DNA from: Nocardioidaceae bacterium
GTDB lineage: Bacteria; Actinomycetota; Actinomycetes; Propionibacteriales; Nocardioidaceae
Direction: 5' to 3'
Assembly: GCA_013813125.1 (NCBI GenBank)
Contig: JACCSH010000283.1
Span: 1 to 15,338 of the forward strand
DNA length: 15,338 nucleotides
The notes below the pieces were generated by a model. That model was not told where the DNA came from. It did not search any database and was given only the letters and a program-made list of their open reading frames with translations. Numbering within the stretch: position 1 is the first letter of the stretch; each line of letters starts with the position of its first letter. A program made the position numbers and the translations under genes. Positions 475-15,150 of the stretch are shown here, piece by piece.

Positions 475-1283
475 AGGTGCTCCGGTATTCGCTGCTGGGA
501 GTCTTGGCCCTGCTCTTCATCAGTCCGCTGGTGTTCATGGTGGGCACGTCGTTCAAGACGCCGGGTGAGGCGCAGGCAACCCCGCCGAGCTTGTTCCCGA
601 CGGCGCCGACGACGCAGGCGTACGAACGCATCCTGAACGCAGCCGACACCCCGGTCTTGCGGTGGTTCCTCAACTCGCTGATGTCCGCCTCCCTGCACGC
701 ACTGCTCGTGGTTGCCACCTCGGCTCTGGCGGCTTACGCACTCGCTCGGATGGACTTCCGCGGCAAGAAGGTGGTGTTCGCGACGATCATCGCGACCCTG
801 TTCGTGCCACCGGTGATTCTCGTAATCCCCAACTACGAGATCGTCGCGCGTTTGTACTGGCTGGACACGTTGATCGCAGTCATCGTCCCGACGGCTGCCA
901 GCGCCTTCGGCGTGTTCTTCCTGCGGGCGTTCTTTCTGCAGCTGCCGCGTGAGCTGGAGGAGTCGGCATTCCTTGACGGCGCCAACCGCTGGCAGGTGTT
1001 CAGCAAGGTGATCCTGCCGCTGTCGGCACCGGCGCTCGCAACCTTGGCACTGCTGTCGTTCCTCACCAACTGGAACGACTTCTTGTGGCCGATCTACGTG
1101 TTGTTCAGTCCGGAGAACCGGACTCTGCAGGCGGGGCTTGCGACCCTGCAGGCAGCCAACAGCGTTCGCTACGACCTGCTGATGGCCGGTGCTGTAGTGG
1201 CGAGCCTCCCCGTTCTTGTGCTGTACATGTTCGCGCAGCGCTACGTCATCGAGGGCGTGAGTCGGTCCGGGCTCAAGGGGTGA
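471..1283 (+). CDS. Carbohydrate ABC transporter permease, MalG-like
   Basis: Second inner-membrane permease of the CUT1 sugar importer; its 270 residues match the usual MalG-type length. The N-terminus has a membrane segment (LLGVLALLFISPLVFMV) leading into the typical periplasmic-side SFKTPGEA motif. The EAA loop lies in the second half (ELEESAFLDGAN followed by FSKVILPLSAPALA), and the C-terminus ends in the family's YVIEGVSRSGLKG-type tail. The ATG overlaps the stop of the preceding permease, and a GGAAGG lies 9 nt upstream at 456-461, which fixes the start. An ORF in this frame stays open upstream but is out of frame with the preceding permease and is not coding there. No ATP-binding gene is visible; CUT1 importers often share an ATPase encoded elsewhere. 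Confidence 0.95.
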   Translation: MKVLRYSLLGVLALLFISPLVFMVGTSFKTPGEAQATPPSLFPTAPTTQAYERILNAADTPVLRWFLNSLMSASLHALLVVATSALAAYALARMDFRGKKVVFATIIATLFVPPVILVIPNYEIVARLYWLDTLIAVIVPTAASAFGVFFLRAFFLQLPRELEESAFLDGANRWQVFSKVILPLSAPALATLALLSFLTNWNDFLWPIYVLFSPENRTLQAGLATLQAANSVRYDLLMAGAVVASLPVLVLYMFAQRYVIEGVSRSGLKG

Positions 1284-2779
1284 CCGCAGCTGCTGGAGCG
1301 GTACGACGACGCACGGCCCTGAAGGCGATGGGGTTGAGTGCCCTGATGCCGACGCTGGTTGGCGCCGGTTGCGATGGCAGCCGGTCACCATCGAGTCCGG
1401 GCGTCGACCAGCGGCACCCCGTACTGGATTTGTCTTTCCGCATCACCGAGCAGTTCCGGCCATTCGCGCTGATCGCTCCTGGATTCGAACAGGTGGACGA
1501 GACCGATGTCGGGAGGATCAGGGGTCTGCGACGCGCCGACGAGGTACCCGTTGCCCCGTTCGTCGCGGTCGAGCTCGGTGTCGAAGCGATGTCAGAAGCG
1601 GGAGTCGCGGTGGGGCTCGTTGGAAGCGACGGCGACTTCGTGCTTGCGGCCTACGACCCAGGGAAGCGCACCGTCTCGATCGAGGTCCGTCGCCTAGGGC
1701 GCACGACCGCGGTGGCGGACGCCGAGGTGACGCTCGAGGCGCCTTTCGGCTTTGCCTTCGTGCTGTGCGAGAACCAGGTCACGGCCGTCGCAGACACGGG
1801 GAAGGGCTGGCAGCCGCTCGTCACCTCTCGCGACGGCGTTTCTGCGCTCGTCGACCTTCGCGACCCCGCCACTTTGGCGGAGTACGCCTTCGCCTTCGGT
1901 ACGAAGACCGACGCAGCCGACGTGGTGGTGCGAACGGTACGAGCAGGCGCCTTCGGCTACACCGGGCTTCGCGACCCGCATCTGGTGCAACGACCGGACG
2001 GCTCGGCCCTGGTGCAAGGCGGCAAGGTGTACCTGACGTTCACCTGCGCAGGAATGGGCTTCTTCCAGCAGGCGCACTGGGGGGTTTTCACCCTGGATCT
2101 GGGGGATCCGACTCGGCTCGAACAGGTTGCCCAGCTCTACTCCCGGCGCGACGGGTTGCTGCTGGGTGACCATGCGGGGCAGCTCATCGTCGATGATGCG
2201 CGGCCGGCACCGGTCGGGGTGAGCTCATGGGGCGACTTCGCCTTCGACGGAGTACACGTGCGGCATGCCGCGAGCAGCGAGGACCTTTTGCAAGGAGTGC
2301 ATCTGCTCGAGACGGAGCCGCTCGACCTGCCGACTGACGTGAGCTCGTGGGACCCGTCCTTCACCCGCACCGACGACAGGTGGTATGTCGCCTTCGTTGA
2401 AAGCCCGTCGCAGGACCCCTTCGTCTTCCACCCTGCCCTCGCCGTCGGCCTGCCCGGGAAGTCCTACGCCGACGATTTGGAGCTGGTGGCAGCCGACGAC
2501 ACGTTGCGAGAGGGGGAGGGCACGATCATCCAGCAGGTGGACGGCGCCTGGCATGTCCTCGCCAGCGACGCGGCCTCGCAGACTTATCCGGTCTACGACC
2601 TGGCGATGAAAGCGCTCGGCACGCTGGACGCGCCATACGGCACCAACATCCCACATCCGCAGGTCGTCAACCTCCCCGGAGGTGCTCATCTCATGGTGAC
2701 CTTCGACGGCACGCAATACGCGGAGGAGGTGCTCGGGTACGGAGGCCACGGCGACGTCGTGGTGATGGCCGCGCAGTGA
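1280..2779 (+). CDS. Exported GH43-like beta-propeller glycosidase, predicted Tat/lipoprotein
   Basis: Predicted exported glycoside hydrolase, 499 residues. The chosen GTG overlaps the preceding permease stop (GTGA), which gives an N-terminus with a twin-arginine-like motif (RRRTALK), a hydrophobic stretch and a cysteine in VGAGC at about residue 31. That is consistent with a lipoprotein anchored outside the membrane, though the lipobox is imperfect. Residues about 40-225 look like an all-beta sandwich. Residues about 226-499 look like a five-bladed propeller of the GH43/GH62 type, with RDPHL (Asp232), WDPSF (Asp358) and EGEG (Glu411 or Glu413) in the order and spacing expected of the base, pKa-modulating Asp and acid. 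Assignment to GH43 is by motif only; a related family or a non-catalytic binder is possible. The gene sits within a sugar-import operon, so local release of oligosaccharides for uptake is the likely role. Confidence 0.7.
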   Translation: MTAAAGAVRRRTALKAMGLSALMPTLVGAGCDGSRSPSSPGVDQRHPVLDLSFRITEQFRPFALIAPGFEQVDETDVGRIRGLRRADEVPVAPFVAVELGVEAMSEAGVAVGLVGSDGDFVLAAYDPGKRTVSIEVRRLGRTTAVADAEVTLEAPFGFAFVLCENQVTAVADTGKGWQPLVTSRDGVSALVDLRDPATLAEYAFAFGTKTDAADVVVRTVRAGAFGYTGLRDPHLVQRPDGSALVQGGKVYLTFTCAGMGFFQQAHWGVFTLDLGDPTRLEQVAQLYSRRDGLLLGDHAGQLIVDDARPAPVGVSSWGDFAFDGVHVRHAASSEDLLQGVHLLETEPLDLPTDVSSWDPSFTRTDDRWYVAFVESPSQDPFVFHPALAVGLPGKSYADDLELVAADDTLREGEGTIIQQVDGAWHVLASDAASQTYPVYDLAMKALGTLDAPYGTNIPHPQVVNLPGGAHLMVTFDGTQYAEEVLGYGGHGDVVVMAAQ

Positions 2780-2813: not shown

Positions 2814-4676
2814 ATGACGAAAAAAAGTTTGCTCGCTTTGGCGCTCGCGTTGCCTCTGCTGGCAGGTTCGCAAGTCTCCGCCGCACCAGTGCGCGACTCG
2901 TATGCCAACCCGCTCGCCCCGAAGGTGCCGGACGACGGAACGGTTGACAGCTGTGCGGACCCCACCGTCCTTCGCGGGCAACGGCCCGACGACGACTACT
3001 GGTACATGTACTGCACCACCGACCCGCTGAACGACAGCGACGTCGACGCAGAGGGAAACCTCCGGTTCCACCCTCTTCCGATGATGCGATCGCGCAACCT
3101 GATCGACTGGCGCTACCTCGGCGACGCGCTCCCCGAGCCGCCCGAGTGGGCCGCCGAAGGTGCCGGTATCTGGGCTCCCGACGTCGTCTACTCCAAGGCA
3201 ACCGATCGCTACTACCTGACGTTCGTGGTGACCGACGTGGACGATGACGTCAGCAACGCACCCGGTTGCACTTTTGACAACGCCATAGGGGTGGCGGTCA
3301 GCAGAGGGCCGACCGGTCCGTGGAGGACGTCGGATCAACCGGTGGTGGGTCCGCGACGCAACCCCAGCGGCGCGGAGTGTGACTTCCTGTGGACCTTCGA
3401 TCCAGACGTGCTCGGTGACAGCATCGGCGAGCGCGGCGTCTTGTACTACGGCTCATACGTCGGTGGGCTGCACGCCACCCGCATCGAGTTGACGCGAGAG
3501 GGCATGCGAGCGCGTGGAGTCGCGCAGCGTATCGCTGTCAACGATCGCTACGAAGGTTCGAATGTTGTGAAGCGAGGAAACTGGTACTACCTGTTCGCCT
3601 CGGCCACCAACTGCTGCAACGGCCCGCTCACGGGCTACAGCGTCTTCGTCGGCCGGTCACAGTCGAGGTTCGGGCCGTTCGTCGACCGTGAGGGCAACTC
3701 ATTCCTCGAAGGAAGAGTGGGTGGAACCCCGGTGCTGAGCATGAACGGCAACCGCTGGGTGGGGACTGGCCACAACAGCGTGTTCCGTGACTTCGGCGGC
3801 CAGTGGTGGACGGTGTACCACGCGGTTGACCGCTTCGACCCGTACTTCGAGACGGACCCCGGGTTCACGAAACGGCCCGCGCTGCTCGACCCGGTGGACT
3901 GGGTGGACGGTTGGCCGACTGTGCGCGCCGGTCGCTGGGCGTCTGACCGGCGCGTGCCGGCCCCGGCAGCGCAGCCCGGTGAGGAGTCACGCTACGACCC
4001 GCACCGGGTACGGGCGCAGCGTCGTGGCGACTTCCTGCCTCGCCCGTCCGCCGAGTTCAACGGCTCTGGTCTCGGCAAGCAGTGGACCTGGGTGCGTGAA
4101 CCAGCCGACAGCTCGTCGTACGGCGTCGAGAATGGACGCTTCCGTTTCGACACCCAGGCTGCCGACCTCTACGTGGACAGCAACGACGCATCGGTGCTGA
4201 CCACCCAAGCCCCAAGCCGGAACTACGTGGTGCAGACCAAGGTGCGGCTAGACGTCCCACCAGAGGGCTGCTGCTACAACTTCGTGCAGGCGGGACTGGT
4301 GATCTACGACAACGACGACCGCTTCTTGAAGCTCGTACACGTCTCCATCGGCGAGACTCGGCAGACGGAGTTCGCCAAGGAGGTCGCCAAGGCTCCGGCC
4401 GAGTACCCGCGCTACGGCAACACGGTCGTCGGGACACCGGGCGACTGGACCTTCCTTCGGATCGTCCGTGAAGCGGACACCACCCGCACAGGTGCTCCCA
4501 GGGAGCGCTACACCGCGTACACCCGGCAGGTCGGCAAGGACTGGGTCCGCGGTGGCACCTGGGTGCACCACCTGGGCGACACCGCCGACATCGGCCTGGT
4601 GTCCATGGGCGGAAGCGGGTTCACCGCGGACTTCGCGAACGTCAAGGTCTGGAAGCTCCGCCCATCTGAGCGCTGA
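2814..4676 (+). CDS. Secreted GH43 glycoside hydrolase with C-terminal beta-sandwich
   Basis: Extracellular glycosidase of family GH43 (arabinanase, arabinofuranosidase or xylosidase activities), 620 residues. A Sec signal peptide is clear: KK, a Leu/Ala core, then VSA-AP with predicted cleavage after about residue 23. The five-bladed propeller spans about residues 30-385. Candidate catalytic residues are Asp49 (SCADPTVL, base), Asp196 (TFDPDVL, pKa modulator) and Glu247 (RYEGSNVV, acid); a WAPD motif at 120-123 is also typical. Residues about 410-615 form a beta-sandwich of the GH43 C-terminal/DUF1349 type (FNG..L..QW, Y.VQTKV, QAGLVIYDND). Several cysteine pairs, such as CC within NCCNG and GCCYN, fit disulfides in a secreted protein. 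It lies 34 nt after the preceding hydrolase with only a weak ribosome site, probably in the same operon. Exact substrate cannot be read; arabinan is a guess. Confidence 0.9.
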   Translation: MTKKSLLALALALPLLAGSQVSAAPVRDSYANPLAPKVPDDGTVDSCADPTVLRGQRPDDDYWYMYCTTDPLNDSDVDAEGNLRFHPLPMMRSRNLIDWRYLGDALPEPPEWAAEGAGIWAPDVVYSKATDRYYLTFVVTDVDDDVSNAPGCTFDNAIGVAVSRGPTGPWRTSDQPVVGPRRNPSGAECDFLWTFDPDVLGDSIGERGVLYYGSYVGGLHATRIELTREGMRARGVAQRIAVNDRYEGSNVVKRGNWYYLFASATNCCNGPLTGYSVFVGRSQSRFGPFVDREGNSFLEGRVGGTPVLSMNGNRWVGTGHNSVFRDFGGQWWTVYHAVDRFDPYFETDPGFTKRPALLDPVDWVDGWPTVRAGRWASDRRVPAPAAQPGEESRYDPHRVRAQRRGDFLPRPSAEFNGSGLGKQWTWVREPADSSSYGVENGRFRFDTQAADLYVDSNDASVLTTQAPSRNYVVQTKVRLDVPPEGCCYNFVQAGLVIYDNDDRFLKLVHVSIGETRQTEFAKEVAKAPAEYPRYGNTVVGTPGDWTFLRIVREADTTRTGAPRERYTAYTRQVGKDWVRGGTWVHHLGDTADIGLVSMGGSGFTADFANVKVWKLRPSER

Positions 4677-4695: not shown

Positions 4696-5055
4696 TTAGG
4701 GTTCAGGGGCCGAAGGGACGTAGACGGGCCCGGTGAGCTTCTCGCCGGGCCCGTCACCCGGTGCGTCAGGGATCTCGGACGCCTCCCGGAACGCTAGCTG
4801 CAACGATTTGAGCCCGTCACGCAGCGGCGCCGCGTGGTGGTGCCCCAGCTGCGGGGTCGCCGCGGTGACGAGCCCAGCCAGCGCTTCGATCAGGCTGCGC
4901 GCCTCGTCGAGGTCTCGATGGGAGGGCAAGTCCTCCGCCAAGCCCAGATGTACGGCGGCTGCGCTCATCAGATGCAGTGCGGCAGTCGACACCACCTCGA
5001 CTGCGGGCACGTCGGCAAGATCGCGCGTGGCGTTGGTCGCTGGCTCGTCGATCAT
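4696..5055 (-). CDS. DUF1844 family protein
   Basis: Small conserved actinobacterial protein of unknown function, 119 residues. The core (residues about 18-95) matches the DUF1844 pattern: VEVVSTAALHLMSAAAVHLGL, then an acidic DLDEAR helix, LAGLVTAATPQLG, and LRDGLKSLQLAFREAS. It is predicted helical and cytosolic; no catalytic motif is visible. The C-terminal tail (about 96-119) is Pro/Gly-rich. It is divergent from infC, across a 332-base shared upstream region, and DUF1844 genes are commonly found next to infC in actinobacteria (recalled, not searched). That neighbourhood hints at a translation link but proves nothing. It converges on the GH43 gene with only 19 bases between stops. I see no good ribosome-binding site before its ATG. 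Confidence 0.85.
   Translation of the reverse strand: MIDEPATNATRDLADVPAVEVVSTAALHLMSAAAVHLGLAEDLPSHRDLDEARSLIEALAGLVTAATPQLGHHHAAPLRDGLKSLQLAFREASEIPDAPGDGPGEKLTGPVYVPSAPEP
4724..4754. terminator. Perfect 10-bp inverted repeat, possible terminator for the GH43 operon
   Basis: ACGGGCCCGG at 4724-4733 and CCGGGCCCGT at 4745-4754 are exact inverted repeats around an 11-nt loop. It begins 48 nt after the GH43 stop and would fold in the transcript of that operon. No T-run follows, as is common for actinobacterial terminators. It lies inside the 3' end of the opposing DUF1844 gene, whose codons for GEKLTGPV it must also encode. Termination activity is inferred. Confidence 0.5.
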
Positions 5056-5078
5056 GGCCGAACAGTAATGGCTGGAAG

Positions 5079-5108
5079 ATGACGAGACGTGGCGGAGACT
5101 GCTAGCCT
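5079..5108 (+). promoter_or_regulatory. Candidate promoter of the infC operon
   Basis: ATGACG at 5079-5084 (four of six matches to TTGACA) and TAGCCT at 5103-5108 (TAnnnT form usual in actinobacteria) are separated by 18 nt. Transcription would start near 5115 and give a leader of about 270 nt before infC. This is the best pair I can see in the gap, but both hexamers are loose matches. Confidence 0.4.
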
Positions 5109-5182
5109 GATCGCCGACTCAGATGTCTTCTCGTCGCACTGACGGAATGCACCGCCTGGATGGGGTGTTGGACATCAAGCAA

Positions 5183-5307
5183 GCGGAGGCCACCTGGCTC
5201 CCACCCGCATCGGCTCTTTCAGGTCGTCGGGTCCGGTCGCAACGCGTGAGGCTTCCCGCCTCGCGCGCTGCTCGTGCTCGACGTTCGAGCCGGTTGGTGG
5301 TTTTCGC
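5183..5307 (+). promoter_or_regulatory. infC leader: candidate antiterminator and structured region
   Basis: Bases 5183-5194 (GCGGAGGCCACC) can pair without interruption with 5296-5307 (GGTGGTTTTCGC): nine Watson-Crick pairs and three G-U pairs. Since 5296-5308 is also the 5' arm of the terminator stem, the two folds exclude each other. Between the arms lie two local hairpins: 5244-5252 with 5258-5266 (9 bp, one G-U, 5-nt loop) and 5276-5281 with 5285-5290 (GCTCGA/TCGAGC, 3-nt loop). I see no convincing leader peptide. Low-GC Gram-positives control infC-rpmI-rplT by L20-dependent leader attenuation; whether the same ligand acts here is inference. Confidence 0.5.
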
Positions 5308-5337
5308 GGATACGACGGCGCGAAGCCACCTTTTTTT
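5296..5337 (+). terminator. Intrinsic terminator (attenuator) in the infC leader
   Basis: GGTGG at 5296-5300 pairs with CCACC at 5326-5330, and TTCGCG at 5303-5308 with CGCGAA at 5319-5324; T5302 can wobble with G5325 and T5301 is bulged. The loop is 5309-5318. The stem is followed directly by seven T (5331-5337), which is a textbook Rho-independent terminator and rare in GC-rich genomes. It lies 50 nt before the infC start and downstream of the only plausible promoter, so it should act as an attenuator. A second GGTGG at 5338-5342, after the T-run, could also compete for the CCACC arm. Confidence 0.75.
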
Positions 5338-5377
5338 GGTGGGGCCTCGCCGAACCGCCCTCATCCGTAGAACTTCC

Positions 5378-5383
5378 AGGAGG
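5378..5383 (+). promoter_or_regulatory. Shine-Dalgarno deciding the AUC start of infC
   Basis: AGGAGG ends 4 nt before ATC 5388. No ATG, GTG or TTG in the infC frame lies at a suitable distance, so this strong site points to ATC as the initiator. Confidence 0.8.
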
Positions 5384-5387
5384 ACCT

Positions 5388-6065
5388 ATCAGCACGGAGC
5401 TACGCGTCAACGACCGTATCCGCGTTCCCGAAGTGCGCCTCGTCGGCCCCAACGGTGAACAGGTGGGCATCGTCAGGATTGACGACGCCCTGCGACTGGC
5501 CCAAGAAAGCGATCTCGATCTCGTCGAGGTGGCCGCAACCGCTCGCCCGCCCGTCTGCAAGCTGATGGACTACGGCAAGTTCAAGTACGAGAACGCCCAG
5601 AAGGCTCGCGAGACGCGGCGCAACCAAACCAACACCGTCATCAAAGAGATGAAGCTGCGCCCCAAGATCGACGCGCACGACTACGCAACCAAAAGGGGCC
5701 ACGTGGTTCGTTTCTTGAAGGCCGGCGACAAGGTCAAGATCACCATCATGTTCCGCGGCCGCGAGCAGCATCGTCCCGAGTTGGGCTTCCGGTTGTTGCA
5801 AAGACTGGCCGGCGATGTCGAGGAGCTCGGCTTCGTCGAGTCGTCACCGAAGCAGGACGGGCGCAACATGGTCATGGTGCTCGGCCCCCACCGCAAGAAG
5901 GCTGAGGCGAAAGCCGAGGTTCGGGCCGAACGCGACCGCAAGGCCGCAGAACGAGACGCTGACAAGGCACTCGAGCAGGCCGAGCGGGTGGAGCGATCTG
6001 CCGCCGCGAAGGACGAGCCGAGGCGTGAGCGTCGGCGCTCGGAGAACCTCGACCCTGACATGTGA
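5388..6065 (+). CDS. infC: Translation initiation factor IF-3, non-canonical AUC start
   Basis: IF-3 binds the 30S subunit, keeps subunits apart and checks start-codon and initiator-tRNA pairing. The product is 225 residues. The N-domain begins [15 protein letters not shown] and includes the conserved [16 protein letters not shown]; the linker/C-domain has [26 protein letters not shown] and a core ending at MVLGP (residue 167). A 58-residue Lys/Arg/Glu/Ala-rich tail follows, longer than in E. coli but usual in actinobacteria. The conserved protein starts at ISTELRVN, whose Ile codon ATC sits behind AGGAGG, so I take ATC as the start. The open frame extends to a GTG at 5274, but that stretch is the terminator-bearing leader. 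A rare start fits IF-3 autoregulation, since IF-3 discriminates against non-AUG/GUG/UUG starts. First gene of infC-rpmI-rplT. Confidence 0.95.
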
Positions 6066-6121
6066 CGACTTCTCCACGGTTCACCTTCACCACTGTTCGA
6101 TGCGTCACCACTACCAACGCA

Positions 6122-6168: not shown

Positions 6169-6363
6169 ATGCCGAAGATGAAAAGCCACTCAGGCACCAG
6201 CAAGCGGGTGAAGACCACCGGGTCGGGCAAAATCGTGCGCCAGAAGACCGGCAAGCGGCACAACCTCGAGAAGAAGCCTTCGACGGTGACCCGCCGGATG
6301 AGCGGTGTTGTCGAGGTCTCGCCGGCGGACATCAAGAAGGTCAAGAAGCTGCTCGGCAAGTGA
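6169..6363 (+). CDS. rpmI: 50S ribosomal protein L35 (bL35)
   Basis: Small basic protein of the large ribosomal subunit, 64 residues, the normal length for bL35. Family marks are the N-terminal [15 protein letters not shown], the central [17 protein letters not shown] and the C-terminal [11 protein letters not shown]. The ATG at 6169 gives the canonical N-terminus; only a weak GAAAG (6155-6159) precedes it, so expression may depend on coupling or on RNA structure in the gap after infC. It lies 103 nt after infC and 47 nt before rplT, in the near-universal infC-rpmI-rplT order. Confidence 0.97.
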
Positions 6364-6410: not shown

Positions 6411-6815
6411 GTGGCACGCGTCAAAAGGGCAGTCAATGCCCACAAGAAGCGCCGGGAGACCCTCGAGCGCGCCGCCGGATATCGCGGGCAGCGCTCGCGG
6501 CTCTACCGAAAGGCCAAGGAGCAGGTCACACATTCGCTGGTCTACAGCTACCGGGACCGCCGAGCCAAGAAGGGCGAGTTCCGCAAGCTCTGGATCCAGC
6601 GCATCAACGCGGCCTCCCGGGCCCACGGCATGACCTACAACCGCTTTATCCAAGGTCTTCGCGAGGCCGGAGTCGAGGTCGACCGCAAGATCCTCGCGGA
6701 CCTCGCGGTCAACGACACGGCAGCCTTCGCCTCGCTCGTAGAGACTGCTAAGGCTCATGTGCCGCCGCCGGGCGAAGCGACCGGCTCCACAGCTGCAGAA
6801 AAAGTCAGCGCCTGA
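6411..6815 (+). CDS. rplT: 50S ribosomal protein L20 (bL20)
   Basis: Primary 23S rRNA-binding protein needed early in 50S assembly, and in several bacteria the autorepressor of its own operon. The product is 134 residues with the expected basic N-terminus ([28 protein letters not shown]) and the globular C-domain ([49 protein letters not shown]). The last 15-20 residues ([17 protein letters not shown]) extend beyond the usual length of about 117. The GTG start has an AGGAG at 6397-6401, 9 nt upstream. Its stop is followed by an open frame that leads without interruption into the methyltransferase gene in the same frame. Confidence 0.97.

Positions 6816-14066: not shown

Positions 14067-15150
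<1,084 letters not shown>

Follow-up and report, generated by a model that had tools for sequence, protein, structure and literature searches.

An L20-leader-like core and a candidate attenuator before infC-rpmI-rplT in Actinomycetes

The infC-rpmI-rplT operon of a Nocardioidaceae bacterium, which encodes initiation factor IF3 and ribosomal proteins L35 and L20, is preceded by a leader that is probably a diverged L20 leader, an attenuator through which free L20 would lower expression of the operon. The leader lies in the window (the whole stretch of 15,338 nt that was analysed), and this reading comes from comparison with infC leaders of other Actinomycetota. In Firmicutes and in Gammaproteobacteria the L20 leader is reported as established (PMC7247131), and a 2021 paper describes almost nothing as known on ribosomal-protein regulation in Actinobacteria (PMC8470358). 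A search of titles and abstract openings, with few subscription papers, found no description of an actinobacterial L20/infC attenuator.

The leader and its predicted switch

The leader and its neighbouring genes are arranged as follows. A1 and A2 are leader alignments and R1 and R2 the models made from them.

2814-4676, + strand: GH43 glycosidase gene, ending more than 600 nt upstream of the terminator stem
4699-5055, - strand: DUF1844 protein gene, the next gene upstream of infC, divergent
5103-5108, + strand: probable -10 box TAGCCT (TAnnnT), predicted, read from the sequence
5175-5242, + strand: conserved core resembling an L20-leader sensor (models R1 and R2)
5181-5183, + strand: AAG with the AA dimer, without variation in all 73 rows of A1 and all 19 of A2
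5183-5194, + strand: putative antiterminator 5' strand, 12 pairs with 5296-5307 (swap and partner tests in relatives)
5185-5188, + strand: P1 5' strand GGAG, also in the antiterminator strand (P1 covariation)
5198-5201, + strand: P1 3' strand CUCC (alignment covariation)
5203-5207, + strand: P2 5' strand ACCCG, with two invariant C-G pairs (73 of 73 each)
5211-5226, + strand: apical helix of P2 (double changes in 5 of 5 alignment pairs, 89% of cells paired)
5228-5232, + strand: P2 3' strand CGGGU (alignment covariation)
5244-5290, + strand: two spacer hairpins, from folding; sequence apparently not kept (by eye)
5296-5337, + strand: predicted intrinsic terminator, stem 5296-5330 and seven T at 5331-5337
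5378-5383, + strand: ribosome-binding site AGGAGG, read from the sequence
5388-6065, + strand: infC (IF3; IF3_N and IF3_C, PF05198 and PF00707), with a rare ATC start
6169-6363, + strand: rpmI (L35; PF01632)
6411-6815, + strand: rplT (L20; PF00453)

From the -10-like box at 5103-5108 the RNA is predicted to start near 5115, and similar boxes are seen by eye 5' of the leader in relatives. A sigma-70 scan found no promoter. The infC start is ATC in 108 and ATT in two of 110 leaders, as placed by an ATC/ATT pattern, which would be in keeping with translational feedback by IF3. IF3 feeds back on its own rare start codon (Feeney 2017, PMC5472188), and this is a layer of control separate from the leader switch. 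Upstream, tblastn with the DUF1844 protein turned up a relative at 58 of 127 loci, short loci being common among the rest, and its matches are antiparallel to infC in 43 of 44 cases among the oriented loci L031-L110. This gene is a conserved neighbour of infC. An open frame at 1085-2776 (+ strand, 564 codons) adjoins the GH43 gene; a Pfam search with it gave no match.

The sequence-only reading had proposed a terminator/antiterminator switch before infC, and its parts stand up to folding. The stem followed by seven T folds at -18.6 kcal/mol (z -3.9), equalled in 0 of 200 shuffles. The spacer hairpins fold at -16.6 (5244-5266; z -5.0; 0 of 200 shuffles) and -7.6 (5276-5290, folded as 5276-5293; z -2.3; 7 of 200). 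A motif scanner found no terminator; it takes loops of 3-8, against 10 in this terminator. Checked pair by pair, 5183-5194 (GCGGAGGCCACC) and 5296-5307 (GGUGGUUUUCGC) form 12 contiguous pairs, each standard or G-U. With the arm 5296-5307 fixed, dinucleotide shuffling of 5115-5290 also gives a run of at least 12 pairs in 18 of 1000 cases, so the evidence of the single sequence for an antiterminator is modest. The further suggestion that GGTGG at 5338-5342 competes for the terminator's 3' arm did not hold: GGTGG lies within 18 nt past the terminator stem in just four of 88 leaders (the window, L009, L094, and L104). Directly behind the T run it is found in the window only among the 88, and also in L004, outside those 88.

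The stem could be the terminator of an upstream gene, or the hairpins could be due to chance, and the leader would then regulate nothing. The GH43 gene is indeed upstream on the same strand, and the shuffles show that a 12-pair run can arise by accident. However, more than 600 nt separate the end of that gene from the stem, the adjacent DUF1844 gene is opposite in direction, and the core recurs before infC class-wide, mostly with a terminator, a conservation that disfavours chance. This explanation is very improbable.

Comparison of relatives' leaders supports the switch, and for the antiterminator it is stronger evidence than the single sequence. A crude finder places terminator-like hairpins in 89 of 105 leaders (its picks in L019, L022, and L024 look wrong and were kept in the counts). 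In the 56 non-Streptomyces leaders among the 88 of 105 taken as having a terminator (two of them, L019 and L043, from one assembly), the antiterminator strand pairs with its own terminator arm at a mean of -15.49 kcal/mol, compared with -14.19 for swapped arms (sd 0.29; 1 of 5000 permutations). Thinning to 45 and to 29 leaders gave 0 of 5000 each, and the most thinned set of 13 was not significant (1408 of 5000). Because of this last result, and because no more than 36 of the 56 leaders pair better with their own arm than with swapped arms on average, shared descent may explain part of the difference. For 43 of the 56 leaders the best partner of the strand falls on the terminator arm (compared with 15% of windows), and for 13 it falls elsewhere. 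In Streptomyces it falls there in 15 of 32 leaders (12% of windows) and elsewhere in 17. Six genomes of the group f7, which we take to be mycobacteria- or Nocardia-like (a guess), have a weaker antiterminator (-11.0 to -14.9), and in two of them (L148 and L155) no terminator was found.

A conserved core in infC leaders

The strand at 5183-5194 sits inside a conserved core, and both this core and the overlap of the strand with it were missed in the sequence-only reading. A total of 110 infC leaders were collected, 30 from relatives' genomes and 80 from named contigs, and a regular expression for the core matched 105 of them. The five outside it are L004, which ends at a contig edge, and L048, L049, L084, and L100, yet R1 matches these last four at 36-48 bits. 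A1 contains 73 of the 105 leaders, after the removal of 29 of the 39 under a Streptomyces label, to thin that genus, and of L006, L043, and L081.

The core consensus is AAG-Y-[GGAG..CUCC]-C-[ACCYG..CRGGU]. Invariant in all 73 rows of A1 are AAG, a G, CCACC, and GG, while P1, P2, and the apical helix covary. In these actinomycete leaders 95.0% of cells in the core are paired, compared with 89.1 in shuffles, and double changes occur in nine of 14 pairs, a number reached in two of 500 shuffles. Covariation is 0.235 against 0.126 in shuffles (0 of 500 as high) and at most 0.099 when the core is slid. P1 by itself has 99.7% of cells paired and double changes in three of four pairs, with compensatory variants such as GGAA/UUCC in L023. 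The covariation that the sequence-only reading had sought among Propionibacteriales leaders is thus present in the core; for the antiterminator the expectation is borne out in part, by the swap tests. R1 matches the window at 59.2 bits (E 1.1e-16), the window being one of the 73 training rows. A second R1 match in the window (14968-15018; 11.4 bits, E 0.036) was treated as chance. A regular expression requiring AAG and P1 gave 29 of 42; it itself demands these elements, and therefore this count is not independent evidence.

Other structures around the core were considered. A pseudoknot in which the 5' part of the apical helix would pair with a downstream GGUC or GGAUC was rejected because, in the leaders with GGAUC, the inner strand varies while GGAUC is constant (by eye). 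In a possible outer helix, P0, GGUC following P2 would pair with a GACC close to where the RNA is presumed to start, and the Rfam model of Scr1601 (RF02830) includes such a helix. P0 was scored in 89 of 105 leaders: GATC and no GACC is upstream in eight of eight leaders with GGATC, and GACC is present in 70 of 81 with GGTC. This change is perhaps one event and the window has four P0 pairs only (5116-5119/5235-5238), so P0 was left out of the core. It may be an outer helix touching promoter-proximal bases, with a GATC/GGATC version in one clade. The 23S rRNA of two genomes (L158 and L160) contains UAAGUGG, which we take to be in the H39-H41 region; that the core mimics 23S rRNA is a lead only.

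In the class Actinomycetes the core precedes infC in 21 of 21 sampled genomes. The R1 genome scan matched 13 of these, and the other eight, whose upstream regions were searched with the filters off, reach 22.7-31.1 bits at sites before infC. Over 246 genomes of the phylum, 33 matched R1 at E<=0.01 under strict filters. At E<1e-6 there are 14 matches, one of them in the window, each about 100-207 nt 5' of the infC match. In other classes, 39 regions upstream of infC were compared with R1 (40 were taken, and L165, incomplete, was omitted), and six match it at E<1e-3. Weak genome-scan matches in L151-L153, with no IF3 start nearby by eye, were treated as chance.

The pattern AAGYGGAGN{2,16}CTCCCACC, which combines AAG, P1, and C-ACC and was derived from the same leaders, occurs in 45 of 58 relatives with 48 matches, 45 of these before infC; its reversed control gave 12 matches. 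Each of the six f7 genomes has a single occurrence of the exact core pattern, and it lies before infC. In L149 and L150, from another class, P1 is altered to GAGGG/CCCUC and the terminators hold complementary segments (by eye), with scripted energies of -14.0 and -9.2. The two cases are suggestive.

Relation to the L20 leader and to Scr1601

The Rfam L20 leader, RF00558 (cut-off 58.7 bits), has no match in the window, at the gathering threshold or at E<=5, none in the genome G000, and none in the 21 class genomes under strict filters. In the phylum it matches 56 of 246 genomes at E<=0.1, one over the cut-off and 55 below it. Comparison with the place of infC covers 31 of the 56 matched genomes: 27 matches lie 21-273 nt upstream and four elsewhere. 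Sub-cut-off matches before infC include those in L163, L175, L171, L197, and L173. The cut-off seems too strict for Actinomycetota.

RF00558 has the consensus AAG-a-[AGAAGC..GCUUCU]-C-[gCC..GGc], the same architecture as the core. Both have AAG-N with the AA dimer directly 5' of P1, then P1, one unpaired C, ACC/GGU with two invariant consecutive G-C pairs, and an apical helix. Both are placed before infC-rpmI-rplT and have a terminator 5' of infC that competes with a mutually exclusive second fold, predicted in the present case. The core differs from RF00558 in its shorter P1 (GGAG/CUCC vs AGAAGC/GCUUCU) and in P2, and the class leaders are below RF00558 detection. According to Eckert and Weinberg (2020), L20 leaders have in common two consecutive G-C pairs and an AA dimer (PMC7247131). 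Both parts of this signature are invariant in A1. A deltaproteobacterial L20 r-leader candidate in the same paper, of another lineage and scaffold, is described as having both features, split by a helix (PMC7247131).

Intermediates link the two families. On ten RF00558-matched loci, where its scores are weak throughout, R1 begins at the same base in four (L163, L173, L175, and L178), six bases off in L171 and L183, and elsewhere in L190 and L192, and has no match at L194 and L197. A less circular test is the model R2, from the alignment A2 of 19 RF00558-matched leaders of other classes (covariation 0.372 vs 0.171). These are 19 of 20 taken, L210 being omitted for its length; the 20 are mainly the top ones of the 56 matched genomes, and comparison with an infC place covers 12 of them. 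R2 finds the window at 5175-5239 with a low score (11.1 bits, E 0.0024 in 1.3 kb), the only match at E<=10 in the region 4800-6100 chosen by the analyst. It is in register, with AAG on AAG, P1 on P1, CACC on CACC, and GGGU on GGGU. Over 33 other class loci (88 kb), R2 gives six matches at E<=5, all beginning at the core start, with P2 put differently in L002, and no match at E<=5 in 27 of the loci.

The architecture and the linking intermediates make L20 the favoured ligand and the kind of RNA a known one, so the sequence-only reading was too open in suggesting an undescribed cis-regulatory RNA with the ligand undecided. New about the leader are its escape from RF00558 in the window and the cataloguing of its Streptomyces form solely as an sRNA.

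The same attenuating leader might instead sense IF3, L35, or a non-protein signal. IF3 is the product of the first gene and already regulates itself at its rare start codon (PMC5472188). It is also reported that the M. tuberculosis infA and infC 5' UTRs are similar (Arnvig 2011, PMC3207917), and this similarity would suggest a signal common to a gene outside the L20 operon. Against this, the architecture fits an L20 leader, R2 finds the window in register, and the six f7 genomes have the exact pattern before infC and at no second place. We know of no IF3 element with a matching architecture. A signal other than L20 is thus unlikely.

Another known RNA, Scr1601 (RF02830), is found at the same place in Streptomyces. 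The model covers the infC leader in L061 (192.8 bits, 2700-2915) and L107 (168.8 bits, 2706-2915) and ends at the U run, with 85 nt left to infC; this placement was checked in these two of ten sources. L061 is also in A1, with the same core. Judged by these matches, RF02830 is the Streptomyces form of the infC leader, core included, and seems misfiled in being catalogued as an sRNA gene. The model is narrow: it matches 12 of 148 genomes of the class, ten of them over the cut-off and all in the genus g35, presumably Streptomyces. In the window it gives 11.3 bits (E 4.9) at 5206-5337 over the full model length, under its 100-bit cut-off. The name scr1601 would come from S. coelicolor infC, which we take to be SCO1600.

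In a third explanation no ligand is involved: the 5' UTR would be structured, its terminator would leak constitutively, and the conserved core would serve to stabilise the RNA or to release a trans-acting Scr1601. Scr1601 is among the S. coelicolor ncRNAs with confirmed expression (PMC8388888), the M. tuberculosis infC UTR is long (326 nt) and abundant with UTR/CDS ratios of 2.6 during exponential growth and 4.9 in stationary phase (Arnvig 2011, PMC3207917), and the full leader folds with the terminator, no ligand being needed. However, a covarying sensor with an exclusive antiterminator exceeds the needs of a leaky terminator, and the S. ambofaciens scr1601 homologue was grouped with UTRs, not sRNAs (PMC8388888). 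The position of Scr1601 likewise argues for a leader product rather than a trans-acting small RNA. We consider this explanation slightly less probable again than a different ligand.

In the part of PMC3765725 considered, 12 earlier sRNAs look like 5' UTRs, and scr1601 is not named among them. The M. tuberculosis infC 5' UTR resembles the present leader in being long and abundant with UTR/CDS above 1; the portion of PMC3207917 considered aligns it with the infA UTR and describes no switch or L20 core. In S. clavuligerus some premature transcript ends are ascribed to ribosomal-protein leaders (PMC8269248), and the main-text account of these ends does not name infC or L20.

Proposed mechanism and meaning

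AAG and the P1 5' strand are part of the antiterminator strand, and therefore P1 and the antiterminator are mutually exclusive; the predicted antiterminator and terminator folds likewise exclude each other. For nascent RNA to 5312, the antiterminator fold is predicted at -92.7 and the fold with P1 and P2 at -83.6. For the complete leader the values are -106.3 for the terminator without P1 and P2, -101.3 for the antiterminator, and -100.1 for the terminator with P1 and P2. The complete leader favours the terminator even without P1 and P2, so the ON state would rest on the order of folding. The antiterminator is predicted to win early, and the outcome to hang on folding order and on whatever stabilises P1 and P2. 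Termination stabilised through P1 and P2 would have the shape of negative feedback.

In the proposed L20 mechanism, 5183-5194 would pair with the terminator 5' arm early during transcription, giving read-through (ON). Surplus L20 would bind the core of AAG, P1, and P2. In the bound core, P1 would take up GGAG (5185-5188) and free the arm 5296-5307. The freed arm would let the terminator close, and the RNA would end near 5337 with about 220 nt (OFF). In the L20 leader of B. subtilis, the terminator is helix H4, and it forms when L20 binds (PMC6097659).

A wider reading is offered tentatively, with slightly more doubt than belief. The L20 sensor would be older than the split between Firmicutes and Actinomycetota and be found phylum-wide in infC leaders, Streptomyces and mycobacteria-like genomes included. 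In Actinomycetes AAG and P1, the presumed L20 contact, would double as antiterminator, and Scr1601 would be the terminated product. If the sensor does double as antiterminator, L20 binding and switching use the same bases. The class-wide covarying core, together with the L20 hypothesis, is testable in Streptomyces and would explain a catalogued sRNA. With such a leader family, Rfam could broaden RF00558 and reclassify RF02830.
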